Assembly (NCBI GenBank): GCA_945893365.1
Contig: CAMDED010000050.1
Coordinates: 1-47,414, forward strand
DNA: 47,414 nt
DNA from: Candidatus Sulfopaludibacter sp. SbA3
Lineage (GTDB): Bacteria > Acidobacteriota > Terriglobia > Bryobacterales > Bryobacteraceae
Direction of reading: 5' to 3'
How positions within the stretch are numbered: position 1 is the first letter of the stretch; each line of letters opens with the position of its first letter. Position numbers and translations under genes: made by a program. The notes below the pieces were generated by a model. The model did no database searches, was not told the DNA's origin, and saw only the letters and a list, made by a program, of their open reading frames with translations. Positions 8,368 through 41,674 of the stretch are shown here, piece by piece.

Positions 8368-9540
8368 ATGTCGATGTCATTCATGGTCGCCTCGGGCGAT
8401 GAACATTTCCGCGAAATGGTTCGCGATAACCTCACCAATATTCCAAACGCGAAGCTTGTGGCGGAGTATCTCGAAGTGGCGGCGAACCTCTATATCAGGG
8501 TTTTACAGGACCTGGAGCGGAATCCGCACGCCGCGCTGATCGTCGATCTCTCCGGGGATACGGAAGCTTCACTGAAGACGCTCGAAAAGGTGAAGCAGGC
8601 CGCGCCCGATCTCTACGTCATCGCGTCGAACTATCACGCCGACGGGGAGACGGTGATCTGGGCCCTGCGTTCCGGGGCTAACGATTTTCTCACGCAGCCG
8701 CTTAAGCGCACGGAGTTCCGGGAGGCGATCGGCCGTCTGGAGCGCGCGCCCCGCCGGGCTGCGTCCGGCGAGAGCAAGCTGGGGAAGGTCTACACGTTCG
8801 TCGGCACCAAAGGCGGCGTGGGAACGACGGCCCTTGCCACGAACTTCGCAAGCATACTGGCGCAGCGGAAGCAGTCTACGGTGCTGATCGATCTCGATTG
8901 GACCGGCAACGACGTCGCCATGCAGCTCGGCGCGACCCCGCAATACACGCTGATGGAAGTGGCCGAGAATTTGAATCGCATGGATCAGACGCTGTTCGAG
9001 GGATTCGTCACACGCGATCCGCTGGGCTTCTTCCTGGTGGGGCCGCCCGATTCCTTCGAACACCGGACCACGTTCACGGAGCACATGTTCCGGGAATTCG
9101 CCACCTTCCTGGTGGAGAAATACGATTCCATCGTCGTCGATGGCGGGCGCACCATTGCCGATGAGGTGGTGCTCGGAGCGTGCCAAGTCTCGGCCACTGT
9201 GTTCCTTGTGACCACGCAGGAGTTTCCCTCCATCCGCAACGCCCAGCGCTACATCGGATACATGATGCGGATGGGCTTCAGCGCGGAGCAGATCAAGGTC
9301 GTGGTAAACCGGTATCAGAAAAAGCCCAGCGTGAATTATGCTAGCCTGGAACAGATCCAGCAAACGCTGAACCAGCCGGTCTTCTACGGCATTCCCGACT
9401 CCCCCTCAATGTTGGCGGCGGTTAACCGGGCCAGGCCCGTGGTTGCCGACCGGCAGGCTGCACCTGAACTGGATAGAGTACTGCGCGCTTTTGCCGACAA
9501 GGCTACCGGCGCCAGGCTGGCCGCCGTGAAGTCGGCCTAG
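8368..9540 (+). CDS. tadZ: Pilus localisation ATPase TadZ/CpaE
   Basis: 390 residues in two domains. Residues 1-125 resemble an atypical response-regulator receiver (LIVDLSGDTEASLKTL; end LTQPLKRTEF). Residues 140-380 are a ParA/MinD-like ATPase with the deviant Walker A KGGVGTT at 148-154 and VLIDLDWTGNDVAMQLG as Walker A' region. TadZ/CpaE places the pilus machine in the cell. The start at 8368 has an AAGGGG about 10 bases upstream; a second in-frame ATG lies two codons on. It sits directly before the TadA ATPase gene, the conserved order in Tad loci. Confidence 0.92.
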   Translation: MSMSFMVASGDEHFREMVRDNLTNIPNAKLVAEYLEVAANLYIRVLQDLERNPHAALIVDLSGDTEASLKTLEKVKQAAPDLYVIASNYHADGETVIWALRSGANDFLTQPLKRTEFREAIGRLERAPRRAASGESKLGKVYTFVGTKGGVGTTALATNFASILAQRKQSTVLIDLDWTGNDVAMQLGATPQYTLMEVAENLNRMDQTLFEGFVTRDPLGFFLVGPPDSFEHRTTFTEHMFREFATFLVEKYDSIVVDGGRTIADEVVLGACQVSATVFLVTTQEFPSIRNAQRYIGYMMRMGFSAEQIKVVVNRYQKKPSVNYASLEQIQQTLNQPVFYGIPDSPSMLAAVNRARPVVADRQAAPELDRVLRAFADKATGARLAAVKSA

Positions 9541-9567
9541 GCGGCCGATGGGACACCAAGGAGAGGG

Positions 9568-10884
9568 ATGGGGACTCGTACACTAGGCAGGCCAGGTTCC
9601 GGGGCCGACCGTTGGTTTGAAATTCGGAGCCAGGTACATCACCGGCTCCTCAATTCACTCACGCCGGATCAGCTCAAGACGCTGAACAGGGATGGCGTGC
9701 GCGGCCAGATCGGCCTCGTCGTTGAGAAGCTGGTCATCGAGGAAAACATCCCGATGACGCTCGCCGAGCGCGAGCGCGTGATTGAGGAAATCCTCGACGA
9801 AGTCTTCGGACTCGGGCCGCTCGAAGCGCTGTTGAAGGATCCAACCATCAGCGACATCCTGGTTAACGGCTTCGAGAACGTGTACATCGAGCGCGGCGGC
9901 CGCCTTGTCGAAACCAACGTGCGGTTCAAGGATCAGGCGCACCTGCGGATGATCATCGAGCGCATCGTTTCAAACGTGGGCCGGCGCATCGACGATTCCT
10001 CGCCCATTGTGGACGCCCGCCTCGCCGACGGTTCCCGCGTCTGCGCCGTGATTCCGCCGCTCTCGCTGATCGGCCCCGTGATGTCGATCCGCCGCTATGG
10101 CAAGAAGGCCCTCTCGACCGACGATTTGCTGAAGAACGAAACGCTCACCAGCGGCATGCTCGATTTCTTCAGCGGGTGCGTCGAGGCGCGTCTCAATATC
10201 GTGATCTCGGGCGGTTCGGGGTCGGGCAAGACGACCATGCTCAACACGATGTCGCGCTTCATCCCGGAGGAAGAGCGCATCGTGACCATTGAGGACACGG
10301 CCGAGCTGCAGCTTCAGCAGTCGCACGTGGTGCGGCTTGAAACCAGGCCGCCGAATATCGAAGGAGCCGGCGCCATCACGCAGCGGGATCTGGTCATCAA
10401 CTCCCTCCGAATGCGGCCCGACCGGATCGTGGTCGGCGAGTCGCGCGGGCCGGAAGCATTGGATATGCTGCAGGCCATGAATACGGGCCACGACGGTTCG
10501 ATGACCACGGTACACGCGAACTCGGCGCGCGACGCCTTCTCCCGTCTCGAAACCATGGTGATGATGGCGAGCGCGCACGTTCCCGATAAAGTGATTCGTC
10601 AGCAGCTCGCCTCGGCCATTCATCTGGTCGTGCACCTGGCGCGGCTTACCGATGGCGCGCGGCGCGTCACCGGCGTCGCCGAAGTGCTGGGCGTCGAGGG
10701 GGAACACGTCGAGATGCAGGACATATTCGAGTTCGAGCGAAGCGGCATCAGCCCGCGCGGCAAGGTGGTCGGAAAGATGCGCGGCACGGGGAACATGCCC
10801 ATCTGCCTCGACAGGTTGAAGGCGTACGGCATTCATCTTTCGCCGTCGATTTTCCGCGAAACGCATGAAATAAAGGATAAGTAA
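9568..10884 (+). CDS. tadA: Secretion/pilus ATPase TadA/CpaF
   Basis: 438 residues, typical of CpaF. The N-terminal domain (about 1-150) includes [22 protein letters not shown]. The hexameric ATPase core has Walker [10 protein letters not shown] (215-223), an Asp box around [12 protein letters not shown], Walker [16 protein letters not shown] and a His box near [14 protein letters not shown]. It powers Flp pilus assembly from the cytoplasmic face. The start has a strong ribosome-binding site AAGGAGAGGG just upstream. The TAA stop shares its last base with the ATG of tadB. Confidence 0.97.
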
Positions 10885-11855
10885 TGTTTCTCTTCTCCCT
10901 CATCATGTTTTCAGCCGTGTTGTTCGGCGCCGGCTACTACGTGTGGCAAGTGCCGCGGCAGGCGGCGCAACAGGCGCTTCAGGTCCGCCTGCGCGACTTG
11001 CGGACGAATACGCGGACGACGCGCGCGAAGGCCCAGGGAAGCGACCTGGTCCGGACGGAGAAGCGGGGGAATTTTGCATTTCTGGGCGATTTCGTGGAAT
11101 GGGTCGGCGTGTTGCGGCGTCTTGAGGACTACATCCGGCAGGCGAATCTGAAGTACCGCGCGGCCGACGTATTCGCGTTGTGTCTCGCTTTGGGCATCGG
11201 CAGTTTTTTGTTTTTCGGATTGCTCGGCATGAGCAACCTCGCGCTGCGCACGGTTTTCGCGGCCGGCCTGGGCTTGGCGCCGGTAGCTTACATCGCGAGG
11301 GTGCGGACCGCCAGACTGAAAAAGTTCGAGGACAATCTTCCCGACGCGATCGACCTATTCACGCGAACCATGCGGGCCGGACACAATATCCACAGCGGCT
11401 TGGAAACGATCGCCACCGAAACGGTCGATCCGGTGAAGATGGAGTTTAAGAAGCTGATGGAGGAGCTGGCGCTTGGCTCGCAAATCGAGCCGGCGCTGCA
11501 CAATCTTGGGAAGCGCGTGCCTCTCATCGACTTGAAGTTTTTCATTACCGCTCTGATCCTGCAGCGGCAAACGGGCGCGAACATGGTCAGCGTGCTGGAG
11601 AATCTGGCCCTGCTCGTTCGCGAGCGCCTGAACATGGCCGCGAAGATGCAGGCCCACACCGCCCAGCAGCGGTTCTCGGCGGGACTGCTCTGCGCTCTTC
11701 CCCTTGTAGTGGGGATTGGATTCTGGTTCCTGAAACCGGAATACATGCGGCTGTTGTACACCGACCCGACGGGCAGCAAGTTCCTTACGTACGCGATTTG
11801 TTCGGAGATCACGGGAATATTCGTTATCAGGAAGTTTGCGAATATCAAATTCTGA
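10884..11855 (+). CDS. tadB: Inner-membrane platform protein TadB
   Basis: 323 residues. It has an N-terminal helix, two central helices (about residues 95-140), the T2SSF domain (about 160-285: DNLPDAIDLFTRTMRAGHNI and RQTGANMVSVLENLA) and C-terminal helices. TadB and TadC form the inner-membrane platform driven by TadA. The start overlaps the tadA stop by one base. A hairpin of 9-bp stem followed by TTTT lies in the 48 bases between this gene and tadC. Confidence 0.95.
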   Translation: MFLFSLIMFSAVLFGAGYYVWQVPRQAAQQALQVRLRDLRTNTRTTRAKAQGSDLVRTEKRGNFAFLGDFVEWVGVLRRLEDYIRQANLKYRAADVFALCLALGIGSFLFFGLLGMSNLALRTVFAAGLGLAPVAYIARVRTARLKKFEDNLPDAIDLFTRTMRAGHNIHSGLETIATETVDPVKMEFKKLMEELALGSQIEPALHNLGKRVPLIDLKFFITALILQRQTGANMVSVLENLALLVRERLNMAAKMQAHTAQQRFSAGLLCALPLVVGIGFWFLKPEYMRLLYTDPTGSKFLTYAICSEITGIFVIRKFANIKF

Positions 11856-11860
11856 AGCGG

Positions 11861-11884
11861 GACAGGCCTCCAGGCCTGTCTTTT
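11861..11884 (+). terminator. Hairpin with short T-run between tadB and tadC
   Basis: GACAGGCCT (11861-11869) and AGGCCTGTC (11872-11880) are perfect complements with a 2-base centre, followed at once by TTTT. This looks like a weak intrinsic terminator or attenuator inside the operon. The T-run is short and the next gene is essential for the same machine, so partial read-through or an RNA-stabilising role is more likely than full termination. It could also be a dispersed palindromic repeat. Confidence 0.55.
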
Positions 11885-11903
11885 GGGGAGCGCGGAGTCA
11901 TCA

Positions 11904-12833
11904 ATGCCAGGCATACTATTCTTCTTTCTCATCGCGTTTACCACCATGGCCGCTTTGCTCTGGAGCGGGTTCATGCTTCTTTCGAACCGCGAGGACCCGC
12001 TGGCGGACCGGCTCGAAGAGTTACAATCGAACGCCATGATCACCGCCAGCCGCGTCGCGCGCCGCAAGGGCGGCGGATTTCTGAACGGCTTCCTCTATGC
12101 GGTTAGCCTCGTGCCCGGAGGCGACGACTGGCTGCGCGACCACGAAAAGGAACTGAACCAGGCGGGCGTTCGCAAGCCGTATGCGCTGGGAGTTTACTCA
12201 CTTTTCCATGTTACCTTCCTGCTCGCGCTGCTTGGCGGCATGGCCTGGTTTCAGCGGAACGGCGATTTCCTATCCATCCTTGGCGGCATGGTGGCGGCTC
12301 TTGTGCTGGGCTTTCTGCTGCCTCAACAGATTCTTCACCGTCTGGTCAGGCGATATCGCACGCGGCTCCAGGACGCGCTGCCGGATACGGTCGACATGCT
12401 GGGTATCGTGCTTGGCACCGGACTGGCGCTCGATCAGGCGATGTCGCGGGTGAGCGAAGAAATGCAGCACATTTATCCCGAGCTCGCGAGCGAATTCGCC
12501 ACCGTGACGATGTCGGTGAGGGCCGGGCAGGAGCGCGGCATTGCATTCCAGCAACTGGTCCGCCGCACGGGTATTGAGGACATCAAATCGCTCTCCGCGA
12601 TGATCATCCAGAGCGAGAGATTCGGCACCAGCCTCTCTCAGGCCCTGAAAGTTTACGCCGACGCCCTGCGAATGAGACGCCGCCTGCGCGCCGAAGCCGC
12701 GATCGGAAGGGCCGGCATCAAGATGCTTTTCCCGATCGTGATCTTCATTCTGCCGGTGCTTTTTGTTATTACGCTCGTGCCGGGAATGCTGAGCGTGATG
12801 CGGGACATGCAGATCATCGGCGCGCCCAGGTAG
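11904..12833 (+). CDS. tadC: Inner-membrane platform protein TadC
   Basis: 309 residues. It has two N-terminal helices, then a T2SSF domain at about residues 155-280 (DALPDTVDMLGIVLGTGLAL; QSERFGTSLSQALKVYADAL) and a C-terminal helix ending in ITLVPGML. It is the partner of TadB in the pilus platform. I chose the ATG at 11904, preceded by GGAG at about 6-9 bases, over a TTG seven codons earlier that falls within the hairpin flank. It is the last gene of the Tad cluster here; no further pilus gene follows on this strand. Confidence 0.95.
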   Translation: MPGILFFFLIAFTTMAALLWSGFMLLSNREDPLADRLEELQSNAMITASRVARRKGGGFLNGFLYAVSLVPGGDDWLRDHEKELNQAGVRKPYALGVYSLFHVTFLLALLGGMAWFQRNGDFLSILGGMVAALVLGFLLPQQILHRLVRRYRTRLQDALPDTVDMLGIVLGTGLALDQAMSRVSEEMQHIYPELASEFATVTMSVRAGQERGIAFQQLVRRTGIEDIKSLSAMIIQSERFGTSLSQALKVYADALRMRRRLRAEAAIGRAGIKMLFPIVIFILPVLFVITLVPGMLSVMRDMQIIGAPR

Positions 12834-13003
12834 GCCGCTCAGGGCCTGTCACGAAATAACCGAGTGCGCGGCACGAAGGCAGGGTCGAAAAACCAACCTA
12901 ACCCCATGAAAATACGAGAGCCCAAAAAAGCGAAGCTCGGGCCAAGCCTGCATTTGCCGCCTTTGGTTTTTCATGAAGTTTCGCGGGCCGTAGGCCCTCC
13001 CCA

Positions 13004-29667: not shown

Positions 29668-30303
29668 CTACTGCGTCAGCCCCTTCCTCATCGCGAACTT
29701 CACCAGCTCCGTCGAGCTCCTCAGCCCCAGCTTCTTCATGATCCGTCCACGATGGGCATCCACGGTAAAAACGCTCACATCCAAGGCCGTCGCAATTTCC
29801 TTTGCGACCTTCCCGTCGGCGAGCAATTGCAGCACTTCCCTTTCCCTCGCGGTAAGCGAATCGAAAGGGTCCGTGGTTTGTTGATAGTCCTCCAAGACCG
29901 TCCTCGAAACTTCGGGACTGAGAAATCCATTGCCGCTTGCGACGGCCCTGACCGCGCGCAGAAGGTCGTCGTCGATGGACTCTTTAACAAGATAACCCTT
30001 CGCCCCCGCTCGCAAGGACTCCCGCACGTAGACCGGGTCCTTGTGCATGCTGAGGATCAGAATCTGGCACTCCGGACGGCCCTCGAGGATGCGGCGCGTG
30101 GTCTCTACTCCATTGATTTCCGGCATCGCGATGTCCAGCACGATCACGTCGGGCCGCAATTCCAGTGCAAGGCGCACCGCTTCCCGCCCCGTGCCCGCTT
30201 CGGCGATAACCTCCATGTCCGGCTCCTGATTGAGGATCAGACGGAATCCCTTCCTCACCACGGCGTGGTCGTCAGCGAGGAGAATGCGAATTTTTCGAGG
30301 CAT
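29668..30303 (-). CDS. NarL/FixJ-type response regulator
   Basis: 211 residues. The receiver domain has the acidic pocket at DD11-12, the phosphoacceptor Asp57 in VIVLDIAMPEINGVE and Lys near residue 107 in AKGYLVKESI. The C-terminal LuxR-type HTH (about 150-205) reads LTAREREVLQLLADGKVAKEIA then VSVFTVDAHRGRIMKKLG. Together with the upstream kinase it forms a two-component system of the NarXL/DegSU type. Its start codon lies within the kinase gene, 32 bases before the kinase stop, indicating translational coupling. No target can be read from the sequence; it neighbours the Dab operon. Confidence 0.95.
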   Translation of the reverse strand: MPRKIRILLADDHAVVRKGFRLILNQEPDMEVIAEAGTGREAVRLALELRPDVIVLDIAMPEINGVETTRRILEGRPECQILILSMHKDPVYVRESLRAGAKGYLVKESIDDDLLRAVRAVASGNGFLSPEVSRTVLEDYQQTTDPFDSLTAREREVLQLLADGKVAKEIATALDVSVFTVDAHRGRIMKKLGLRSSTELVKFAMRKGLTQ

Positions 30304-31576
30304 GTTCCTTTCTCGTGAGCGGCAGTTCCAACTTGATCGTTACGCCCTTACCTGGAGCGGATTCGATGGTCAGCGATCCCGCAGCCGCGCGCGCCCGGGC
30401 CCGCATGCCAACCAGCCCGAGTCCGCCACCCTGCGTTTTACCCGGCATACCCTTCCCATTGTCGGATACGGCCAATGACAGGTGTTCCTCGCCCGCATTG
30501 AGTTCCACCCGGACGGCAGTGGCATTCGAATGGCGTGCGACGTTCGTTAGCGCTTCCTGGAGAATGCGGAATACCTGAGTCTCTATCTCGTCCGGCAATC
30601 TCTCCACGGGAGAGGATTTGTAGTCCACCGCGATGCCTGTACGCAGCGAAAAGCCGTCCGCGATCGAGCGAAGGCTCGCGTCCAGGCCGAAGTCGTCCAG
30701 TACGCTCGGCCGCAGCAACTGCGAGAGTTCACGGGTGTTCTCAATGGCTTGCTTTACCAAAGCAAGGCAGTCTTCGATCCGCGTGTTGTGAAACTGCCGG
30801 GCGTTATGGATCGCCACCAGATTCGCCTCGATGGCGCTAAGGTTTTGGCCGAATTCGTCATGCAGCTCTCTCGAAAAGCGCCGCGCCGTGGTTTCCTGGT
30901 CGGCCATGGTTCGGGACGATAAATGCGACAATTCCTCGGTCTGCCACCGCAGCTGCCGGAATATCCGGCCGACCACGTGGACGGTCAGGGCGGTTCCAGT
31001 CAACGCGATCACCAGGGCCGCGGCCAGCAGCGCCACCGAGAACCGGACTCGCCTACCCGAGCTTTCCATCTCCCTCTTTTGCGCCATTGCGGCCGCGTCG
31101 AAGTGAACCGTGGCGAGGTCTCCCAAGGTGTTGATAAGGGCCTCGTGAGCGCGGTAAAACTCCAATGGAGGATGCGCTCCCGAGGTAAGGATCATTCGCC
31201 CCGCGGTGATAAATCTCGCCACGGCGTCCTTCACTTCACCCCAAAGAGCCGGATTACTGGAAGCGAGCCCGGCTGAAGTGGTGTCGCGAATCACCTTTTC
31301 GAGCTTGTCGAGCCGGGTTAGAAGTTCAGCTCTCGATGCGTCGCCGTTGCCCGCCGCAAGCTCGTAGAAAACCGCGCTCAGGTTGTCCACTTCCCGCTGA
31401 ACATCCTCAACCAGGCGCAGCATCGCCCGCTGACCCTCCAGCAGCTGCGCCGTCTCCGTTTCAATCGAGCGCATGGTTCCCACGCCGATGTAGACAGATA
31501 TCACGAGGAGAGCGATGAGGAGCGCGAACCCGCCGATCAGAACCCGAAAGAGATGAACTTCCTGCGGCTCGCGCAT
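30272..31576 (-). CDS. HPK7-family sensor histidine kinase
   Basis: 434 residues. Two membrane helices (about 10-32 and 177-201) enclose a periplasmic, mostly helical sensor region of about 140 residues with no clear named domain. The HisKA_3 dimerisation box is SRELHDEFGQNLSAIE with phospho-His239. The HATPase_c domain follows with ILQEALTNVARHSNATAV (N box) and DNGKGMPGK with GLGLVGMRARA (G boxes). It phosphorylates the overlapping NarL-type regulator. The signal is unknown. It is 61 bases from the end of the Dab operon on the same strand, so read-through and a carbon-linked signal are possible but unproven. Confidence 0.94.
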   Translation of the reverse strand: MREPQEVHLFRVLIGGFALLIALLVISVYIGVGTMRSIETETAQLLEGQRAMLRLVEDVQREVDNLSAVFYELAAGNGDASRAELLTRLDKLEKVIRDTTSAGLASSNPALWGEVKDAVARFITAGRMILTSGAHPPLEFYRAHEALINTLGDLATVHFDAAAMAQKREMESSGRRVRFSVALLAAALVIALTGTALTVHVVGRIFRQLRWQTEELSHLSSRTMADQETTARRFSRELHDEFGQNLSAIEANLVAIHNARQFHNTRIEDCLALVKQAIENTRELSQLLRPSVLDDFGLDASLRSIADGFSLRTGIAVDYKSSPVERLPDEIETQVFRILQEALTNVARHSNATAVRVELNAGEEHLSLAVSDNGKGMPGKTQGGGLGLVGMRARARAAAGSLTIESAPGKGVTIKLELPLTRKEHASKNSHSPR

Positions 31577-31637: not shown

Positions 31638-33035
31638 TCAGTGTTTTCCGCCGGTAGTTCCGTGCGTCGCGGCGGTTGCGGTGAGTGCGGCCAGAAGATC
31701 GGCAGCCGTCGAGCGCATGGCGACCACTTGACTTGGCATCAATCCGCCCCACACGAGAATCGCGAGGCAGGCCGAGAAAGCCCAGCGCTCGCGCGGCAAC
31801 GCATCCGGCGCTTCGGCCCAGGCGGCGACGGGCGCGCCCAGGAACAACCGCGAGAACAGCCGGTACGCGCTATAGGCGTTAAGCGCGATGGCAGCCGGGA
31901 CGATGATTCCTAGAAGAGGATGTGCCGATAACACGCCATGGATCAGCAGATCCTCGCCGGGAAAGCCGAGAGTGCCGGGCAAGCCGACGAGCGCGAACGC
32001 GCTCACCGCGAAGAACACGGCGAGCCGGGGCATTTGCGCCGCCAGGCCAAGGAGGCGTTCTCCCGCCAGCGGCTCATCGATACGCGCTTCGATGGAGCGG
32101 CATATCGAGATCATGACGGTTGAAGCTACGCCGAGCACGATCCACTGCACCAGGCCCCCCGTGGTCCCTTCCGGGCGCGCTGTGACGAGCCCCGCGAAGA
32201 TCGCCGACGACTGACTGAGAAAGATGAGCGCGAGGAGCCGGCGAGGCTTCCGCTCCACAATTCCGAGGACGGCCGTGTAAATCGCCGTGAACAGGGCAAG
32301 CGCGCTCAACCACGGCAGAGCCGTCCGCGCCTCCGCGGGAAATAGCGGCACGGCGAAGCGAACGATGAGGAAGACGCCGAGGTATGCGTTCATCAGCAGG
32401 CCGGCAGGCAGCAGAGGGCCATCTTCGAATCGCTGTATCGCCACGCGGTGGAACGGGAACAATCCCGCTCGCAAGACCGCAGCCAGCACGAGAAAGGCGA
32501 ACGGGTACCCACCAGATACGCCCAACGTCAGCAGAATCGCGGCTACGGCCAGGAATACCGCGCTTGCGGCGAGTTCGAGCGTGGCGCGCCGCCGTGCGGC
32601 TTTATCTCTTATCGTGAGCAGAACCGGAAGCAGCGAAGCGGTCCAGCCGCCCAGAAATACGATTAAATTGCCGGCGCCGTAAGCCGCCAACGCGCCGGCC
32701 GTGAGCGTCAAAACGGTCGATACCTGTCTGCCGCCGATGTCGCGCCGGGGAGCTGAGATGAGCGTCACTAGTGCAAGCGCCGCAAACAGCGCCATCGTCA
32801 CGGCATTCAGCGCATTGGCGCTGAATAGGGCTGGAACCCAAGGTTCGGACATCGTCGCCCAGCCGGCGGCGGCCAGCTCACGCACGGTCTCGAGCGACAG
32901 CAGGAGAGACGCCGCGCACGCCATCACGGCGATCGCGCGCGCGTGCCGCTGAGTACCTGGCAGCCTCGATACGGCGGCGGCAGCCAGTGGAATCGCGATA
33001 CTCCCGGTCAGCCAGGGGGCGGTCAAGTCAGACAT
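31638..33035 (-). CDS. NuoM-like membrane subunit, second antiporter-type subunit of the Dab operon
   Basis: 465 residues, about 13-14 membrane helices, related to the proton-translocating NuoL/M/N family but divergent. Where active members have an essential Glu in a GWE motif this protein has GGWT (Thr132), and the position of the key Lys in the discontinuous helix seems to be Arg (LRAGLFPFHR, Arg189). The ATG at 33035 overlaps the dabB stop by 8 bases and has GAGGGT just upstream, so it is translated with DabB. Described two-component Dab systems have one such subunit; this extra one could be a structural or regulatory partner. An alternative is a separate NDH- or Mrp-like complex subunit. 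Confidence 0.75.
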   Translation of the reverse strand: MSDLTAPWLTGSIAIPLAAAAVSRLPGTQRHARAIAVMACAASLLLSLETVRELAAAGWATMSEPWVPALFSANALNAVTMALFAALALVTLISAPRRDIGGRQVSTVLTLTAGALAAYGAGNLIVFLGGWTASLLPVLLTIRDKAARRRATLELAASAVFLAVAAILLTLGVSGGYPFAFLVLAAVLRAGLFPFHRVAIQRFEDGPLLPAGLLMNAYLGVFLIVRFAVPLFPAEARTALPWLSALALFTAIYTAVLGIVERKPRRLLALIFLSQSSAIFAGLVTARPEGTTGGLVQWIVLGVASTVMISICRSIEARIDEPLAGERLLGLAAQMPRLAVFFAVSAFALVGLPGTLGFPGEDLLIHGVLSAHPLLGIIVPAAIALNAYSAYRLFSRLFLGAPVAAWAEAPDALPRERWAFSACLAILVWGGLMPSQVVAMRSTAADLLAALTATAATHGTTGGKH

Positions 33036-34368
33036 GCGAACCCTCGTTAGACGGAGCCTTCGGCGATAGACGCCAACGGTTTTCAAGCGATGTCATCCGC
33101 TGGGCCAGCTTGCGCAAAGGCCCGCTCACGACGTGGTCGAGAATCGTGTCGTGATGCCCGCGATCGAGCGCGAGGCGGTAGAGCCACGACCGCAGTCCCG
33201 CCGGCAACGCGGTTTCGTAGTGCGCTCCGGTTTTCGGGAGATGGCCTCCGGCCGCGGCGTGAAGGCCGTGGAACTCGTGCAGAGCCGACGGAGCCTTCAG
33301 GAATTGCAGCGTCCGCACGACCGCGTGGCCGGTGATGTGGATCAGCGGCAGCCACGAGAACCCGGCTCCAATCTCCATGAAGATCAATCCGAGTTGGGAG
33401 ATCGACGAGTAAGCGAGCGACGTCTTCACGTCGCTCGAAGCGCGCGCAACCATCGTCCCGTGTATCGCGCTGCAGGCGCCGATGAAGATCACGACGCCGG
33501 ACGCGAAGGAAGACGCGGCAAGCAGGGGCTGCGCGCGCAACATCAGGTACGCGCCCGCATGCACGGAGATGGCTCCATAAAAAATGGCGCTCGATGGAGT
33601 AGGACCTTCCATGGCGCGCGGCAGCCAGCCGGAGAATGGCGCCTGCGCGGATTTCCCCATTGCGCCGAGCAGCAGGAAGAGCCCGATGAGGGTCGCGCCG
33701 CCGCCCGTCATCACGGACGATTGACCGGGCCACTCGCCCGGGAACACAGACCGGTACAGCGTCGATCCGGCCCAGTGATGCAGGAAGAATGCGCCGGCCA
33801 TAATGCCGATGTCGCAGCCCCGGTAAGTAGCATAGACGCGAATGGCGCTCTTGACGGGTTCCGGCCTTTCATGAAAAAACGCGACCAGCAGCGCGGAGGA
33901 TACGCAGATGATTTCCCATCCGCCAATCAGCAGATCGACCGAGCCGGCCGCGAAAACCAACAGGGAGCCGAAGGCGAAGAGATGCAAGAGCAGGAAGAAA
34001 CGAAAGAATCCCCGCTCACGATGAAGATATCTGCGGGAAAACACCGCGACCAGCCCTGAAAGCAGGGCCGTCAATCCCATGAGGGGTACCGACAACCGGT
34101 CGGCGAGAAGGGTCAGCGGGATCTGAAACTCGTGAACCGCGTACCAGTTCCCGGTTCCCGCGCTTACCGACGTCAACCCGGCGGACCGCATGGACCAGAC
34201 GAGACCGCAAAGCATCAGGCAAACGAACCCGTAGGTGGCGTTCGCGGTTCGCGCGATGGCCTTCTCGGGCGGATTCACGCCGACCAGCCAGAGCAGTCCC
34301 ATGCCCAGGAATAGACATCCGGGTGCAAGAACCGCAAGGATGAGGAACGTCTGTGGGGTGAGTGGCAT
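33028..34368 (-). CDS. dabB: DabB-like proton-conducting membrane subunit
   Basis: 446 residues from the ATG at 34368. It is a NuoL-like Proton_antipo_M protein: LLIGGWEIICVSSALLV carries the essential Glu (residue 151), and GAMGKSAQAPFSGWLPRAMEGPTPSSA carries the Lys (239) and the discontinuous helix, followed by SSDVKTSLAYSSISQLG. All proton-path residues I can judge are kept. In DAB systems DabB anchors DabA at the membrane and supplies proton flow to drive CO2 hydration. It begins 17 bases after the dabA stop and overlaps the NuoM-like gene. The C terminus (from about residue 365) is soluble. Confidence 0.85.
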   Translation of the reverse strand: MPLTPQTFLILAVLAPGCLFLGMGLLWLVGVNPPEKAIARTANATYGFVCLMLCGLVWSMRSAGLTSVSAGTGNWYAVHEFQIPLTLLADRLSVPLMGLTALLSGLVAVFSRRYLHRERGFFRFFLLLHLFAFGSLLVFAAGSVDLLIGGWEIICVSSALLVAFFHERPEPVKSAIRVYATYRGCDIGIMAGAFFLHHWAGSTLYRSVFPGEWPGQSSVMTGGGATLIGLFLLLGAMGKSAQAPFSGWLPRAMEGPTPSSAIFYGAISVHAGAYLMLRAQPLLAASSFASGVVIFIGACSAIHGTMVARASSDVKTSLAYSSISQLGLIFMEIGAGFSWLPLIHITGHAVVRTLQFLKAPSALHEFHGLHAAAGGHLPKTGAHYETALPAGLRSWLYRLALDRGHHDTILDHVVSGPLRKLAQRMTSLENRWRLSPKAPSNEGSHV

Positions 34369-34385
34369 TGGCAAGGGCGCCCTCG

Positions 34386-37259
34386 TTACCGCGCTGACTC
34401 ACTCGAGATACGGGCGATTGGAAGGTGCTCGATCCTGCCTCGAAACCAATCCGCCGACGAGGCGGCCGACGGAAGCGTGTCGAGCGCGGGACTCAGTCTC
34501 TCAAACTCCGCGCCGCGCCGTATCCACACTTCTCCCGAATCGGGGTCTATCGTTGCGAGACGGATCCATCGATTCCCCAGGAACTCCGCCAGTTCGGGAT
34601 TCGCGGACATCACTTTCATGACCCGCTCCGGCGTCGATTCGACGGCAAACAGAATTCGTACCGGTTCATGCACCTCGACCATCTGCCACGGCAGGCCCGT
34701 CCTCAAATCGCTCGCGTGCCCGTTCATCACCCCGATCAATCCGGTCACGTTGTGCGGCAACTTGGTGCCGCAGCCGTAGCGTTCATTGTCGACAAAGGAG
34801 AAGTAGTATTCCAGGCTGATTCCGGCGCACACGGGTACGACGGCCCCCAGCAGCCGGGCCAGGGCGGAGTCGCCGGCATCCTGCGCGGCGTCATAGGAAA
34901 CCAGGAACGCCCGGCGGTCGAGGAAGAGGCCGCGCGTCAACTCCCGCCGTCCCACGATGCAAACCGCGTTGGTCGCATGCCCATACTCCGGACGCGGTTC
35001 CGAAAGGCGTTCCGCGCGGTCCTGAACGTGACGAAGCGCCCGGCCCGGGCCGCCGTAAGCGGATGCCGCTTCAAACCGGCGCACGCGTTCCTGCGCGTCT
35101 AATGCGCGCGCCGCGTCGAGAGCCACTCGCAGCCTGGAGAGTTCGGAGCGATGGCTTTCCGGTACGAATTCCAAATCGAATAGCGCGATGCCGGCATTGC
35201 AGGTGTCGTGATAGCCGCCGACAAACCAGGTGTCGCCCGGAATCTCAACGCTGCGCGCGCGCAGTCCGCGGCGAACGTCCCGGCGATTTGCCATCGCCGC
35301 AAAAACACGGCCGTTCGGCCCGCCGCGCCCCCCGCCACACGCCCCGCAGTCATGCGCCGACTCGTGCGGATTATTGAGGCTTGTCGATCCGTGGCCCAGA
35401 ATCGCAACCAGCCGCGCGAATCCGTCGCGCAGTCCCGCGTTTCCAAGAGTGCCGGCGACGCGATCGATCATTTCCTCAAGCGTAAAGCCCTGCAGCAGGC
35501 CGTTTGACGCGATATGAGCCTCGGCTTCGGATCGCGTAAACGCCAGTTCGGTCGATGGCTGCGGGATCAATCGCTTGTGCAGCGCCTTCTCCAGCCGCCC
35601 ATAGCGGCCTGGCGCGAGCACCCGCGTCACCAGCGGGAAAAGCGCCAACGGCCATAATGCGGTGGTGCTCGCCCAACCGCGCAGCAGAGTGCGCGAGGAG
35701 AGGAACGTTTGGCGCGCCATGCGGGCCCAGGCGCGGCGCCGGCTGACCCGCCGCCGATGGAGCTGCGAGTGATGGCTGCTCGGCCGCTCCCGCACGGAAT
35801 GTTGAGGCTTGACCACCACCGGGCAGAGCGCCGCTCCGTGGGCGTCGTCAATGCCGGTATACTCCATGGCCACGCCGAAGAACCCCGCCGTTCCGTGCGT
35901 CTTCACGTCCGGCGCAACCTCTTCCAAGTGCCTGCGAAGAGACTCCTCGCGTTCGTCGATGCAAAAGAATACGTCCGCGAAAGGCCGGCGGCCGCGCCCA
36001 CCCGGCATCTTATTCCGGCGATGCAGCGCCAACGGCTGAAGGACGTCCTGTTCGTGGCGGAGCTCGTACGCCAGGTGAAAAAGACGCCGGCGCTCAAGCG
36101 CGTCGAACTTTTGGATCTCACTTGCCAATCGGCGTCGCAACACGGGATTCCAAGCCGTCAGATCCCGTTCGGAGAGACCAAGCCGCCGGAGGGCGTCCCA
36201 CAGCCTGGCCGCCTTGGCCCGGCGTTCGGCCGGTCGAGAAGGCGTGGACACAGGGGTCTTGCGCCACTCGTGAAGTCCCAACGCTCCCATCCCGCGCTCT
36301 TCCAGGACGCCGACCGCGGCAACCAGCTCCAAGGTGAGGCGGACGGCCAGAAATTCCATCAATGAGCAAGGCACCCTGACATGCGGAGCCAGGCCCGGAT
36401 TCTTCTCCAGTTCGCGGACGATCCCGGCCCAGCCGGGCAACGCCAGAAGTTCGGCTGTCAGGACCCGTTCCCAATCCTCTTCCGGCACGCCCAAGCGGTC
36501 CAGCGCTTTGAGGGCGACCTCTTCCGCGTCCAGGTTCTGCTCCAGTTGAGCGCGGAACTCATCTCCCAACCGCTCCAGGTATCTCGGATACAGCGCCCAG
36601 CCCGGCGCGAGCAATGCGCGGACGGAATCGAGAAACCCGCTTTGCCGGTTCGGCATCGGCCAGTAGGCGATGCCTTGATCCAAATACACCCCGGTGAGAC
36701 GTATCAGGAGGGGGTGGATCACCTCGTCAAGGTCGATTCCAGCCAGGTGCAACAGGCCGTCCCGCGGGCGCGCCGGCGGCTGGGCGGGCACGGCTTTCAT
36801 CTCCACCAACTCAAGACAAGCGGCGAACAATCCGTGCCCGTCCGGTTCAAGAAGTCGACTTTCTTCGAGCGCCCAATCGATGGTCGCGGCATCGAAGTCG
36901 CGTTGTCCGCTAATCAGCAGCGTGCTTCGGAGTGTCCGGCGGTCGAGAGCGCCGGGCAGGATCGCCTCGTTCGCTTCCCGCTCGACCACTGCGCGCAGGT
37001 CTTCTTCGCGAATACGTCCTTTGGCCAAACCCTCGCGGTAGGCAGCCTCGCTCATGAAAGGCTCGGCGCCGTATACGCCCGACGCGGCGACCACCGCATC
37101 CTCAAACGGCAGGTGCTGAAACGCGTGCAGCGTGTTGTGGTGGATAAACACGCCGATCGGACCTTGAGACGGCAACAGGTGAGCGGCGTGCTCGACCATG
37201 TGCGCAAGTCTCGATGAACGGCTAACGGAATCCTGTGACCTGGCTGGCGCGGCTTGCAT
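34386..37259 (-). CDS. dabA: DabA-like DUF2309 (UPF0753) inorganic-carbon subunit
   Basis: 957 residues from the ATG at 37259. DUF2309/DabA couples to a membrane partner to convert CO2 to bicarbonate in one direction, raising internal inorganic carbon. The carbonic-anhydrase-like zinc site is present: Cys433 and Asp435 in VFFCIDEREESLRRH, His623 in ILGHGSTSLNNPHESAHDC and Cys638, 15 residues apart as in the characterised Halothiobacillus protein (His524/Cys539 there). The N terminus has PIGVFIHHNTLHAFQHLPFEDAV, the conserved family start. The start codon is uncertain as no good ribosome-binding site precedes it; the frame is open 41 codons further. It is the first gene of a three-gene operon and is divergent from the SulP gene. 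Confidence 0.9.
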   Translation of the reverse strand: MQAAPARSQDSVSRSSRLAHMVEHAAHLLPSQGPIGVFIHHNTLHAFQHLPFEDAVVAASGVYGAEPFMSEAAYREGLAKGRIREEDLRAVVEREANEAILPGALDRRTLRSTLLISGQRDFDAATIDWALEESRLLEPDGHGLFAACLELVEMKAVPAQPPARPRDGLLHLAGIDLDEVIHPLLIRLTGVYLDQGIAYWPMPNRQSGFLDSVRALLAPGWALYPRYLERLGDEFRAQLEQNLDAEEVALKALDRLGVPEEDWERVLTAELLALPGWAGIVRELEKNPGLAPHVRVPCSLMEFLAVRLTLELVAAVGVLEERGMGALGLHEWRKTPVSTPSRPAERRAKAARLWDALRRLGLSERDLTAWNPVLRRRLASEIQKFDALERRRLFHLAYELRHEQDVLQPLALHRRNKMPGGRGRRPFADVFFCIDEREESLRRHLEEVAPDVKTHGTAGFFGVAMEYTGIDDAHGAALCPVVVKPQHSVRERPSSHHSQLHRRRVSRRRAWARMARQTFLSSRTLLRGWASTTALWPLALFPLVTRVLAPGRYGRLEKALHKRLIPQPSTELAFTRSEAEAHIASNGLLQGFTLEEMIDRVAGTLGNAGLRDGFARLVAILGHGSTSLNNPHESAHDCGACGGGRGGPNGRVFAAMANRRDVRRGLRARSVEIPGDTWFVGGYHDTCNAGIALFDLEFVPESHRSELSRLRVALDAARALDAQERVRRFEAASAYGGPGRALRHVQDRAERLSEPRPEYGHATNAVCIVGRRELTRGLFLDRRAFLVSYDAAQDAGDSALARLLGAVVPVCAGISLEYYFSFVDNERYGCGTKLPHNVTGLIGVMNGHASDLRTGLPWQMVEVHEPVRILFAVESTPERVMKVMSANPELAEFLGNRWIRLATIDPDSGEVWIRRGAEFERLSPALDTLPSAASSADWFRGRIEHLPIARISSESAR

Positions 37260-37509
37260 AAGTTGGTTGAAGACACGGTCCCTTGCGGACGGCACACTGA
37301 ACTCGGCCTGACATACAGACCCGTAGCCGGAGGTTCGCTGGAACTTACATCCAGGATGCGGCCTTACCCCGGCAAATTGCAAGAAAAAACAGCGTCACTT
37401 ACAGAACAAGGCTACAAAGCGGACCAAATGACTCGTAGTCGATTGCCAGCCCTCTGAAATGCGTCTAACCTAATTGGTAGGCGTGGCCTGCCGCGCCGAC
37501 CTTCCAACA
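37260..37509. promoter_or_regulatory. Divergent control region between dabA and the SulP gene
   Basis: 250 bases between the start of dabA (minus) and the SulP permease (plus). It is richer in A and T than the flanks, especially 37379-37475. A TTGCCA at 37443-37448 with TCTAAC 15 bases on could be a weak promoter for the permease. No clear operator palindrome is seen. The divergent layout would allow one regulator to control both halves of the carbon island. Confidence 0.4.
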
Positions 37510-39057
37510 ATGAATCCTAACACGATTAAGCACGATTTGCTGGCGTCCGTAGTGGTATTTCTGGTTGCGCTGCCTCTCTGTCTGGGCATTGCGATCGCAT
37601 CCGGCGTGCCTCCGGCTGCGGGCTTGATTACCGGCATCATCGGCGGTATCGTCGTAGGCGCCTTGTCCGGCTGCCCATTACAGGTTAGCGGCCCGGCTGC
37701 GGGCCTTGCCGTGCTGGTCTACGAAATCGTGCAGAAGCACGGCCTCGAAAAGCTGGGTCTTATCGTATTACTCGCCGGCGTCATTCAAGTGGTAGCGGGA
37801 TTCCTGCGGGCCGGACAGGTCTTCCGGGCGATTTCACCTTCCGTGGTTTACGGAATGCTGGCCGGCATCGGAATCCTGATTTTCGGGGCGCAGTTCCATG
37901 TGATGGTGGACGACAAGCCCCGCGCGAGCGGACTCTCGAACCTGCTCACGATTCCGGAATCAATCGGAAAAGGTCTTTTTCCGATCGAGGGAGGCAGCCA
38001 TCATCTGGCTGCATACATTGGCGTCGGCACCATTGTGATTCTGATTCTATGGACCAAATTTGCGCCGAAGCAGCTAAAGTTGATCCCCGGCGCTCTGGTT
38101 GCCGTGATTGCGTCCACGGCGGTCGCCGCCGCGTTGGCGCTGCCGATCCGGTACGTCGAGCTGAGCGACAACCTGCTGGGAGGGATCCAATTCTTCCAGT
38201 TCGGCGAGCTGCCGAAGCTGTTCAGCGGCGACTTGTTTTTGCTGGCGGTCACCGTAGCGTTCGTGGCGAGCGCCGAGACCCTGTTGTCGGCCGCCGCAGT
38301 CGATCAATTGCACGGCGGCGCCAAAGCGAACTACAACCGCGAGCTGATTTCGCAAGGCGTGGGCAACGCCCTGTGTGGATTGGTGGGCTCGCTTCCGATG
38401 ACCGGAGTGATCGTTCGCAGCGCCACCAACGTGGCGGCGGGAGCCAAGACGCGCCTTTCCACGGTTCTGCATGGCGTCTGTCTCCTGGCTCTGGTCGCCG
38501 CGTTTCCGGGGCTCCTGAAAATGATCCCTACCGCCAGCCTGGCCGCGATCCTGGTCTATACCGGTTACAAGCTCGTGAACGTGCAAAACATGAAACGTCT
38601 GTTACGCTACGGCGGAGCTCCCATCGTGATCTATGCCGCCACTGTGGCGGGTATCGTGGCCACAGACTTGCTTACCGGCATATTGTTGGGCTTCACGCTC
38701 TCGATCCTCCAGGTGATTTACGCCCGAACTCACTTCAACATGCAATTGGAGCCGCACCCCAACGGCCGCCGAATAGACGTTTTCCTCAAGGGGGCCGCAA
38801 CGTTCCTCAGGCTTCCCAAGTTCGTGGACGCGCTCGATGCGATCTCTCCTGAAAAGGAAGCTCATATTCACCTGCGCGATCTGGACTACGTCGACGACGC
38901 CTGCCTCGAAGCGCTCACAAGCTGGCAGCAGCAGCGAACCCAGAAGGGGTCGGTAGCCGTGATCGAGTGGGACGAGGCGATGCGCCTTTATCGCGACAAG
39001 AATCCCTTGGGTTCCTACCAGCGGGCGGACCTGGCTGTCACGGGGTCTTCACACTAG
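37510..39057 (+). CDS. SulP-family anion permease with STAS domain, candidate bicarbonate transporter
   Basis: 515 residues. The membrane domain carries typical SLC26/SulP segments: LPLCLGIAIASGVPPAAGL, GALSGCPLQVSGPAAGLAV, VAFVASAETLLSAAAVD and GVGNALCGLVGSLPMTG followed by VIVRSATNVAAGAKT. The C-terminal STAS-like domain (about 420-505) includes HLRDLDYVDDACLEAL. The family moves sulfate, bicarbonate or other anions. Beside DabA, DabB and a beta-carbonic anhydrase, bicarbonate is the most likely cargo (as for BicA), which is inference. I chose the ATG at 37510; upstream in-frame GTG/TTG codons give no better N terminus. Confidence 0.87.
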   Translation: MNPNTIKHDLLASVVVFLVALPLCLGIAIASGVPPAAGLITGIIGGIVVGALSGCPLQVSGPAAGLAVLVYEIVQKHGLEKLGLIVLLAGVIQVVAGFLRAGQVFRAISPSVVYGMLAGIGILIFGAQFHVMVDDKPRASGLSNLLTIPESIGKGLFPIEGGSHHLAAYIGVGTIVILILWTKFAPKQLKLIPGALVAVIASTAVAAALALPIRYVELSDNLLGGIQFFQFGELPKLFSGDLFLLAVTVAFVASAETLLSAAAVDQLHGGAKANYNRELISQGVGNALCGLVGSLPMTGVIVRSATNVAAGAKTRLSTVLHGVCLLALVAAFPGLLKMIPTASLAAILVYTGYKLVNVQNMKRLLRYGGAPIVIYAATVAGIVATDLLTGILLGFTLSILQVIYARTHFNMQLEPHPNGRRIDVFLKGAATFLRLPKFVDALDAISPEKEAHIHLRDLDYVDDACLEALTSWQQQRTQKGSVAVIEWDEAMRLYRDKNPLGSYQRADLAVTGSSH

Positions 39058-40190: not shown

Positions 40191-40949
40191 CTATTTACCG
40201 AACGGGAAGCTGGAGAAAACGGCCACCTGGAGGGTGTGATTGGATTCGCGAATGGAGCTGTTCCTCCGCGCCAGAATCTGATTCATGTACCCCACTTCGA
40301 TCTTTCCGGGTTTCCCAAGACTGTACCCGAGCGCGGCGTAGGCGCGGTTCTGGTCGAAGACGCCCGCGCCGTGCCGGGGCGCGAAGTTGACGAAGATCTC
40401 GTCGTAGAATGCCGCATACCAGTTCTGCCGCTTACCCGTCCGTCCAAGGGGCGCCTCGGCTTTATGAAACTGCCTGTACCGGTTCTGATATCGCCAGGAA
40501 TCCACCTTCACGGCGCCATCGCCGCCGGGCAACACTTGGCCGATGAACCTCTGTTCCAGCCGGAACCGGTGCTGCAGGCGGACGCCGCCGGCCTTCTGTC
40601 TTACTAACACTTGCTGATAAATGCGGTGCTCGGGGAACGGATATCTGCCGGGAAAGTCCCCATAGGGATGAGTCTTTACGTAGGCGTAGCCGAGCGTGAG
40701 CATCGCGCTTTGGTTGAGCTCGTAGTTGACTCCGGGCCGGAGCAAAAGTTGCTGCCATCGTGTGGCGACGTCGTGCCGACGCCATTGGCCTTCGAGGTGC
40801 GCGCCCCACCTGCCGCGAACGGGATGGTCGCCGAAGTACATGTACCAGCCGTGGCGATTTGTGTCCCACACTCTGCCGGCGGCGCTTTGTCCACCGGCGC
40901 TTCCGGTGGCCAGGAAAAGAGCGGCTATTATGATCGGCGTCCCCTTCAT
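40191..40949 (-). CDS. DUF2490 outer-membrane beta-barrel protein
   Basis: 252 residues. The signal peptide is PIIIAALFLATGSAGGQ. The mature chain is a run of amphipathic strands: WGAHLEGQWRRHDV, LRPGVNYELNQSAMLTLGYAYV, GVRLQHRFRLEQRFIG and IEVGYMNQILARRN, and it ends in a C-terminal beta strand (LQVAVFSSF). This pattern matches DUF2490, small outer-membrane barrels of unknown function. It is on the minus strand 65 bases after the beta-carbonic anhydrase gene (same strand, downstream), so cotranscription is possible and a pore role for the island is conceivable. Confidence 0.82.
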   Translation of the reverse strand: MKGTPIIIAALFLATGSAGGQSAAGRVWDTNRHGWYMYFGDHPVRGRWGAHLEGQWRRHDVATRWQQLLLRPGVNYELNQSAMLTLGYAYVKTHPYGDFPGRYPFPEHRIYQQVLVRQKAGGVRLQHRFRLEQRFIGQVLPGGDGAVKVDSWRYQNRYRQFHKAEAPLGRTGKRQNWYAAFYDEIFVNFAPRHGAGVFDQNRAYAALGYSLGKPGKIEVGYMNQILARRNSSIRESNHTLQVAVFSSFPFGK

Positions 40950-41014: not shown

Positions 41015-41674
41015 TCAACTCGCCAGCCGGACGCCGGTATGCCCACGAGCGGGCTCCGTCTCGTCGATTGGAATAAAAGATCCTCGCGCCGGATTGAACT
41101 CCTTCACTTCTCCGGATGCGATGTCGTATGTCCAGCCGTGGAGAGTCAGCGCCCCCTTCGCCAGTCTGGCCGCAACCGAAGGATGCGTGCGCAGGTTATC
41201 CATCTGCGCCCGCACATTCGCCTCGATCAACGCGTTGAGCCGCTCCTCGCCGCTGAGGTGCGAATGGTTTTCCTCAACCACAAACCGGGCGCTCTCGCCG
41301 TAGCGCAGCCAGGCGGACACCGACGGCATGTGGGCTACGTGCCGCGGATTCAACAGCGCCTTCATCGCCCCGCAGTCCGAGTGGCCGCAAATGACGATGT
41401 CTTTCACCCCCAAACCGAGGACGGCATACTCGATCGTAGCGGAAACGCCTCCGACTACGTCCCCGTACGCCGGCACTATGTTGCCGGCGTTGCGGCAGAT
41501 GAAGATGTCCCCCGGCTTAGTCTGCGTGAGCAAGCAGGGATCGATGCGCGAGTCGCTGCATGTGAGGAATAGCGCCTCGGGATTCTGGCCCCCTGCCAGC
41601 GACTCAAACAGATCGCGGTTCCTGGGGAATACCTCGTGTTGAAACTTGGCGAGACCCGCCCTGACTTTCTTCAT
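41015..41674 (-). CDS. Beta-class carbonic anhydrase
   Basis: 219 residues. Zinc ligands Cys39 (in LTCSDSRIDP), His98 and Cys101 (in VICGHSDCGAM) are intact, as is the Asp41-Arg43 dyad. RNAGNIVPAYGD and GGVSATIEYAVLGLGV are typical of clade-B beta enzymes. It interconverts CO2 and bicarbonate in the cytoplasm; no signal peptide is visible. Lying beside a Dab-like operon and SulP permease it would equilibrate the imported pool for carboxylases, although a cytosolic anhydrase would also let CO2 leak unless regulated. Upstream is a 520-base gene-free stretch, so it probably has its own promoter. Confidence 0.95.
   Translation of the reverse strand: MKKVRAGLAKFQHEVFPRNRDLFESLAGGQNPEALFLTCSDSRIDPCLLTQTKPGDIFICRNAGNIVPAYGDVVGGVSATIEYAVLGLGVKDIVICGHSDCGAMKALLNPRHVAHMPSVSAWLRYGESARFVVEENHSHLSGEERLNALIEANVRAQMDNLRTHPSVAARLAKGALTLHGWTYDIASGEVKEFNPARGSFIPIDETEPARGHTGVRLAS

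Follow-up and report, generated by a model that had tools for sequence, protein, structure and literature searches.

The locus considered here raises the question of why an operon for a DAB should include an antiporter-like subunit that lacks canonical proton-handling residues. It lies in a 47,414-nucleotide stretch of DNA from Candidatus Sulfopaludibacter sp. SbA3 (contig CAMDED010000050.1; the whole stretch was analyzed and is referred to below as the window), in which three genes follow one another on the minus strand in the order dabA, dabB, and a third gene. The first (34386..37274; about 962 amino acids, with a start that is not settled and a frame open to 37382) encodes a PF10070 protein (E, 1.5e-237), dabB (33028..34374; 448 amino acids) encodes a NuoL-like protein, and the third gene (31638..33035; 465 amino acids from its ATG) encodes a NuoM-like protein. 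The latter two both match PF00361, over different parts of the 294-position profile (positions 10-227 for DabB and 85-286 for the third protein); the third subunit scores 73.3 bits against a cut-off of 21.5, and all 44 aligned members of its family, the window copy included, match. A preliminary description of this DNA had noted that dabB and the third gene overlap by 8 bases, as their coordinates bear out (ATGTCTGA), and had suggested that an intact DabB is paired with a degenerate partner whose channel is inactive or serves another ion. Our own reading, to which we give about an even chance, is that the third subunit and DabB are two complementary part-antiporters that form one proton route at their seam.

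An alignment with Escherichia coli NuoL, NuoM, and NuoN and an AlphaFold2 model of the third subunit (predicted local distance difference test score, 93.1) agree with the preliminary description in placing Thr132 and Arg189 at two key sites. Thr132 (codon 32640..32642, minus strand), in the context GGWT, occupies the site of NuoM Glu144 within helix 124-139 (transmembrane helix 5, or TM5), and Arg189 (codon 32469..32471, minus strand), in the context AVLRAGLFPFH, occupies the site of NuoM Lys234, where it ends helix 176-190 ahead of the break to helix 196-205 (TM7a/b); the alignment has no gaps from the TM7 site to the PxH motif that follows. The TM8 Lys265 and TM10 His322 of NuoM are replaced as well, by Tyr218 and Gln275, and the TM12 acid is retained at the helix break as Glu361-Asp362 (codons 31950..31955, minus strand). 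Complex I NuoM shares the antiporter fold but keeps Glu144, Lys234, Lys265, His322, and Glu407. In a fold search, the model matched complex I chains over its length, with Thermus thermophilus chain 4he8_G (Z, 45.8; root mean square deviation, 2.1; 432 aligned) followed by NuoL chains at about Z 41.

The presence of a NuoM-like gene in operons of this type was recognized as early as 2017, when the COGNAT "clade C" ybcC operons were described as having ybcC (dabA) upstream of a nuoL homologue and, in the neighborhood, genes for SulP (COG0659) and NuoM (COG1008) (PMC5700660). By gene order and neighbors, the window locus fits that description, and we refer to DABs of this kind as class C. A scan of the genome collection with four orthologues returned 51 loci, of which 49 hold third-subunit orthologues; the other two are a Bacteroidales NuoM-like match (L102) and the last gene of an Accumulibacter five-gene DAB cluster (L103). 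After removal of three duplicates (L063, L070, and L098, which duplicate L048, L050, and L049), the orthologues come from Acidobacteriota (42) and Verrucomicrobiota (4), the closest of them (67% identity) again from Candidatus Sulfopaludibacter, and L101 is a contig-edge fragment. With five loci from further relatives the set comprises 51 distinct loci, not all of which are independent, since L071 and L078 share one assembly and L074, L075, and L091 appear to be closely related. Wherever a distinct locus extends as far as dabA (48/48), dabA, dabB, and the third gene lie in that order on one strand, and the linkage of dabB to the third gene holds in all 50 that reach dabB. In 48 of these 50 the two genes overlap by 1 to 25 nucleotides, a count made with the ATG or GTG nearest to an 8-nucleotide overlap, a choice that favors overlap. 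Frames are broken in L057 (dabB) and in L076 and L087 (dabA); contig-edge or frame-broken pieces were dropped (DabAs below 900 amino acids, 4/49; DabBs below 400 amino acids, 3/51), and H12, which nearly duplicates H11, was excluded. DabA-like matches occurred in 123 plasmid records (7 used) and in 83 of 369, 22 of 345, 9 of 288, and 52 of 250 genomes, from which 30, 14, 5, and 13 regions, respectively, were taken; the 39 two-subunit rows used below are a sample, not a census.

Among 53 third-subunit sequences (again not all independent), the ion pair formed by the TM5 Glu and TM7 Lys of NuoM-type subunits is absent, with no acidic residue at the TM5 site in 52 and no Lys at the TM7 site in 53. 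The TM5 site holds Ile (25), Val (9), Thr (6), Trp (5), Ala (4), Leu, Phe, or Met (1 each), plus one gap, and the TM7 site holds Arg (50), Thr (2), or His (1). The conserved trait is therefore the absence of the TM5 acid, together with the TM7 Arg; the Thr of the window copy is not itself conserved. The residue after the TM7 site is Lys and the TM8 site is His in 50/53 each, the TM10 site is Gln in all 53, and the position of Asp362, one past the TM12 site, is Asp or Glu in 52/52. The window copy and its nearest relative, L053, lack both Lys190 and the TM8 His (Ala190 and Tyr218 in the window), and the N-terminal repeat of the window copy is in this respect degenerate beyond the norm of its clade. 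Three other explanations of the missing residues were rejected: misalignment or a frame error, given that the state is kept over 53 sequences and the model placement is confident; a recent pseudogene, given 43 orthologues at 34 to 67% identity in the alignment; and a plasmid-borne oddity, given that the nine plasmid matches to the third subunit are 27 to 29% identical pieces (three annotated as NADH-quinone oxidoreductase subunit M and six without a listed gene).

The decay is one-sided. Among third subunits, pairwise identity averages 0.465 in the N-terminal repeat (TM4-8) versus 0.643 in the C-terminal repeat (TM9-13), a C/N ratio of 1.38 (1.35 to 1.42 by bootstrap over related sequences), and DabB in the same 48 rows shows the opposite, 0.723 (TM4-8) versus 0.640 (TM9-11). 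Proteobacterial five-gene clusters, arranged NuoM-DabA-DabB-NuoM-NuoM (e.g., L158 from Accumulibacter; also L156, L159, L169-L173, L175, L176, L243, L244, and L249-L253), offer a comparison. Of their three NuoM-like subunits, N2, which directly follows DabB, shares the TM5 and TM7 losses (non-acidic in 18/18 and Arg in 18/18) and has a ratio of 1.17; the other two keep Glu and Lys (20/20 and 18/18), with ratios of 0.88 for N1 and 0.96 for N3. The label "degenerate" thus suits the third subunit as far as its TM5 and TM7 residues go, but the degeneration is mainly N-terminal: the N-terminal repeat is relaxed, and the C-terminal repeat is conserved.

DabB is complementary to this, in that the TM5/TM7 pair is kept and TM12-15 are gone. 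As the preliminary description held, DabB retains both residues (Glu154, codon 33913..33915, minus strand, and Lys241 in the window), and so do all 80 class-C DabBs. The best-described relative is DAB2 (DabA2-DabB2) of Halothiobacillus neapolitanus (PDB 9rd0; PMC13144422), a two-subunit machine with the same Cys2-His zinc site, Asp-Arg dyad, and NuoL-like DabB; its DabB has 15 TMs and Ile151 at TM5, and the complex has no NuoM-like subunit in that account. The TM5 Glu was found in none of 39 sampled two-subunit DabBs, so that, with the Ile of DabB2 (PMC13144422), the earlier characterization of this residue as essential does not hold for DABs generally. Downstream of the site of DabB2 Lys347, 48/48 three-gene rows have only 94 to 118 residues (89 in L177 and 82 in L255), and no TM was predicted there in the three examined. 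Two-subunit DabBs have 176 to 224 residues in 25/26 rows (420 in the other) and four TMs in the two examined; NuoL has five TMs past the site where DabB2 has four. Five-gene DabBs have 160 to 180 in 11/12 rows, the twelfth being truncated by the end of its contig, and a single TM was predicted there in the two examined. In the model of the window DabB, the TM11 helix (341-374) is followed only by helices 392-403 and 405-434, which are not transmembrane by hydropathy; the count of zero TMs after TM11 rests on the model too, because the hydropathy count missed some N-terminal TMs. Foldseek matched the DabB model to NuoL over about 362 columns. In a further comparison, the model aligned to NuoL from the start to about residue 580; this range, which gives first and last positions rather than a residue-by-residue match, fits a NuoL-like end retained in the modeled DabB after an internal gap. 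The pair itself is conserved (48/48 loci), but its DabB member is not intact, lacking TM12-15 and carrying Tyr266 and Arg354 at two sites considered below. In the rows counted, the TM5 Glu accompanies the presence of a second TM12-bearing module.

In Bacteroidota, parts of the two proteins can share one polypeptide. Of 14 regions inspected, 10 (L260, L263-L270, and L274) have a DabB that runs on into the third subunit's C-terminal repeat, and into that repeat only; the other four encode two-subunit DABs. The fused DabB is 623 to 654 amino acids long by open frame, and the 17 to 19 kb searched around the ten fusions yielded no gene for a NuoM-like protein of its own. The tails of L264 and L267 match the third-subunit profile from position 309/319 to 422/424 (E, 6e-14 and 4e-11), ahead of the N1, N3, and NuoN profiles, and the two-subunit DabB and NuoL models have no match there. 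These matches span about the end of TM11 to TM13, and the extension to TM9 rests on a ten-row alignment in which the tail covers 163 to 165 of the 168 third-subunit residues 233-400 (TM9-13). Asp362 and Arg392 are kept in 10/10 fusions and Glu361 in 9/10, and the N-terminal repeat is absent, bar unspecifically aligned pieces that include one leading TM. In a DabA tree (quick method, 56-row subset), the fused Bacteroidota proteins are sister to the three-gene class with a support of 100. The fusion physically links DabB and the third subunit in at least one lineage and shows which part of the latter is kept.

DabA has changed as well. The zinc-site residues are kept in all 79 class-C DabAs (Cys438, Asp440, Arg442, His628, and Cys643 in the window, matched to the DabA2 sites), and the DabA membrane finger, a likeness to DAB2 seen in the sequence, is conserved in the window as a hydrophobic stretch. 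At finger site 444, where Ala or Gln in place of DabA2 Glu444 abolished DAB2 activity (PMC13144422), Glu occurs in 0/79 class-C DabAs (three, all among the 22 five-gene DabAs, have Asp) versus 38/39 two-subunit DabAs (L261 has Ser), with the column uncertain by a residue or so and two alignments differing. Over the whole finger window (DabA2 434-456), there is no Asp or Glu in 46/46 three-gene rows (window included), at least one acid in 26/26 two-subunit rows, and one acid in 4/14 five-gene rows. The site of DabA2 Leu658 is His in 79/79 class-C DabAs (His766 in the window) versus Leu in 39/39 two-subunit DabAs. Leu658 has been called strictly conserved in 150 homologues, canonical beta-carbonic anhydrases having Gln or His there, and an L658Q variant of DAB2 remained inactive in CO2 hydration in vitro (PMC13144422), for which reason His766 alone need not mean free activity. 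Class-C DabAs may, judging by this residue, stand closer to canonical beta-carbonic anhydrases. The expectation that this machine differs from the studied two-subunit DABs was sound: it has a third gene, lacks Glu444 and the TM12-15 of DabB, and has His in place of Leu658.

If the two part-antiporters do meet in a common route, the operon would encode a proton-driven vectorial carbonic anhydrase made up of DabA, a shortened DabB, and a half-degenerate third subunit. The third subunit would then fall short of a complete second pump: TM4-8, its N-terminal repeat, would act as a scaffold or plug, and its C-terminal repeat (TM9-13), with Glu361-Asp362 as the proposed partner of DabB Glu154, would supply the periplasmic half-channel. 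DabB would supply the Glu154/Lys241 pair and, beneath DabA, the half-channel on the cytoplasmic side. Under the proton motive force, protons would enter at TM12 of the third subunit, act on or cross to Glu154/Lys241, and go on to the cytoplasm, and their passage would gate CO2 hydration at the DabA zinc site. In DAB2, it is the finger of DabA that stands in for NuoL TM12 (PMC13144422); were a second protein to take over the job that Glu444 does there, the finger acid would be free to be lost. One account of complex I has NuoL TM5 exchanging protons with NuoM TM12 and leaves the distal NuoL TM12 partnerless (PMC10212512). In class C, with neither a TM12 in DabB nor an acid in the finger, the third subunit would bring a TM12 acid to the side on which, by this analogy, DabB retains its TM5 Glu. 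The conservation, the complementary losses, the fusion, and the changes in DabA are what the compared sequences contribute to this scheme; its contact geometry, proton direction, and coupling we infer by analogy, and CO2 as the substrate and dependence on the proton motive force would follow from membership in the family. As for the inactive channel of the preliminary description, one half-channel is very probably dead, but the third subunit retains a conserved C-terminal repeat.

Several points weigh against such a composite route. The contact between the third subunit and DabB is carried over by analogy from complex I, for which another account finds direct inter-subunit transfer unlikely and gives the ion pair an electrostatic role (PMC11496545); if that account is true, the seam would be a switch and not a wire. 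Glu361 is replaced by Gln in 18/52 third subunits, leaving Asp362, and in the fusions the His366 column is Ser (10/10) and Gln275 is not kept. In 80/80 class-C DabBs, the sites of DabB2 His260 (in TM8) and Lys347, where Ala impaired the DAB2 complex (PMC13144422), are occupied by Tyr and Arg (Tyr266 and Arg354 in the window), so that DabB's own conduction would be altered too. In N2, the TM12 Glu is lost (Ala, Val, or Ile in 18/18, with an adjacent His in 18/18) and the TM8 Lys is kept; the seam model is therefore not transferable unchanged to the five-gene clusters, where the chain would need N1 or N3. All class-C DabAs form one clade in the DabA tree, so that the correlations between DabA and DabB amount to one ancestral change and the fusion to one more. 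Two proteobacterial class-C DabAs lack an adjacent DabB: in L160 (dabA, 8508-11741), no antiporter gene was found in 19.5 kb, and in L162 (dabA, 9595-12987), only an upstream NuoM-like gene was found. Finally, the descent of the third subunit could be from N2, N3, or N1: a quick tree groups it with N2 (support, 75; a first tree warned of long branches), but constrained trees joining it to N3 or N1 are likelier than that joining it to N2 (approximately unbiased test, p-AU 0.861 and 0.631).

Much of the pattern could also arise from decay of a terminal subunit and nothing more. The third subunit would simply end the chain, its TM5 would face lipid without a TM12 partner, the TM5 and TM7 sites would be relaxed, and an altered proton route of its own would add an ion per turnover. 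In keeping with this, each type has one antiporter-like subunit without the TM5 Glu (DabB in two-subunit DABs, 0/39; the third subunit in three-gene loci; N2 in five-gene clusters), Lys190, His218, Asn216, and Gln275 are conserved in most third subunits and could form another route, and it has been proposed that more membrane subunits move more ions (PMC5700660). The general idea that the terminal subunit lacks the TM5 Glu, which fits the two-, three-, and five-gene types, nevertheless fails for the Bacteroidota fusion, which drops the N-terminal repeat and whose single polypeptide keeps the TM5 Glu; moreover, the window copy and L053 also lack Lys190 and His218. We consider decay by itself unlikely, if a contender to be taken seriously, and prefer a shared route at the seam because the fused protein has acquired part of a second module without giving up the TM5 Glu.

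A purely structural role, in which the third protein merely stabilizes a DabB without TM12-15 and transfers no protons, also seems improbable to us. The loss of canonical residues at TM5, TM7, TM8, and TM10 would suit it, as would the shortening of DabB exactly where NuoL and DabB2 have TM12-15 (PMC13144422), but a protein that served only as a scaffold would have no need of a buried acid, and position 362 is Asp or Glu in 52/52 third subunits and is kept in 10/10 fusions. It is harder still to credit a different ion or substrate, whether through conduction of an anion such as bicarbonate by an N-terminal repeat lined with Arg, Lys, and His or through the use of Na+ by the complex, and we regard this as very improbable. 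Arg189-Lys190 and His218 are indeed conserved in an N-terminal repeat without the TM5 acid, a SulP gene accompanies 22/38 loci, and Na+ use has been argued for MpsAB (PMC13144422). The N-terminal repeat is, however, the more variable half and is not part of the fusion, and Lys190 and His218 are missing from the window copy; the other ion specificity raised in the preliminary description finds nothing in this analysis that points to it.

Known systems resemble the class-C locus in part. DAB1 of H. neapolitanus, a three-subunit DAC, also comprises three genes, one of them for a membrane protein in addition to DabA1 and DabB1, but that protein is a small hypothetical one (PMC13144422); in nine loci that we took as DAB1-like from gene order and the length of DabA, DabA carries Glu444 and Leu658 and DabB has no TM5 Glu. 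DAB2 itself has Leu658 and the finger Glu444 (PMC13144422). The five-gene clusters also have class-C DabA and DabB and a post-DabB subunit without the TM5 Glu and with Arg for the TM7 Lys, but differ in having two extra NuoM-like subunits with Glu and Lys and in an N2 that keeps the TM8 Lys and lacks the TM12 Glu. Cyanobacterial NDH-1MS with CupA likewise sets a carbonic anhydrase on a NuoL-type subunit, NdhF3, paired with the NuoM-type NdhD3, and the lateral channel of NdhF3 has non-polar in place of charged residues; that machine, however, is redox driven and attached to a full complex I, and the CupA fold is unlike known carbonic anhydrases (PMC6981117). The 2017 account, in the portion available, gives gene content and a proposed exergonic reaction and has nothing on a degenerate subunit or a fusion (PMC5700660). 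A literature search, which did not cover the 2019 DAB paper (Desmarais et al.) or the supplements of PMC5700660, found no report of the residue pattern of the degenerate subunit or of the fusion.

A broader and more tentative proposal, to which we give somewhat less than an even chance, is that class-C DABs are a separate mechanistic family. Its channel would be built from two incomplete antiporters (the third subunit giving the periplasmic repeat and DabB the TM5/TM7 switch), the DabA finger acid would be dispensable, DabA would carry the canonical beta-type His, and the Bacteroidota fusion would be the minimal form of the composite channel and of antiporter-antiporter contact generally. The way in which protons or signals pass between antiporter-like subunits is still disputed for complex I (PMC10212512, PMC11496545), and these loci would offer a natural dissection of the problem: one protein retains the TM5/TM7 switch, the other retains the TM12 half-channel, and one phylum has joined only those. 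The contact between NuoM TM12 and NuoL TM5 could thereby be put to the test in a small machine that is not known to have electron transfer. The finger Glu444 and Leu658 stressed for DAB2 are not shared by DABs in general, a point that counts when a DAB is picked for carbon-uptake engineering.

Neighboring genes were counted in those 38 loci in which 3 kb or more precedes dabA on its upstream side (BLAST E, 1e-10; homologues anywhere in the stretch). A SulP-family anion transporter gene (37474..39057, plus strand) diverges from dabA in the window and is the one with homologues in the 22/38 loci mentioned above; in Bacteroidota, a SulP-like gene directly follows the fusion in L264 and L269. Downstream of the third gene, a histidine kinase gene (30272..31576, minus strand) adjoins the operon, accompanied by a gene for a LuxR-type response regulator (29668..30303, minus strand); each has homologues in 21/38 loci, and the two may control the operon. 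A beta-carbonic anhydrase gene (41015..41674, minus strand), with homologues in only 2/38 loci, is a neighbor that is not clearly part of the complex, and a gene for a DUF2490 protein near the SulP gene (40191-40949) has homologues in 6/38. Elsewhere in the same genome, the sole match to the RuBisCO large subunit (L178, on contig C86 of G000) adjoins a gene that resembles, and that we take to encode, a DUF1537-type kinase, for which reason we regard this match as a RuBisCO-like protein and not a Calvin-cycle enzyme.

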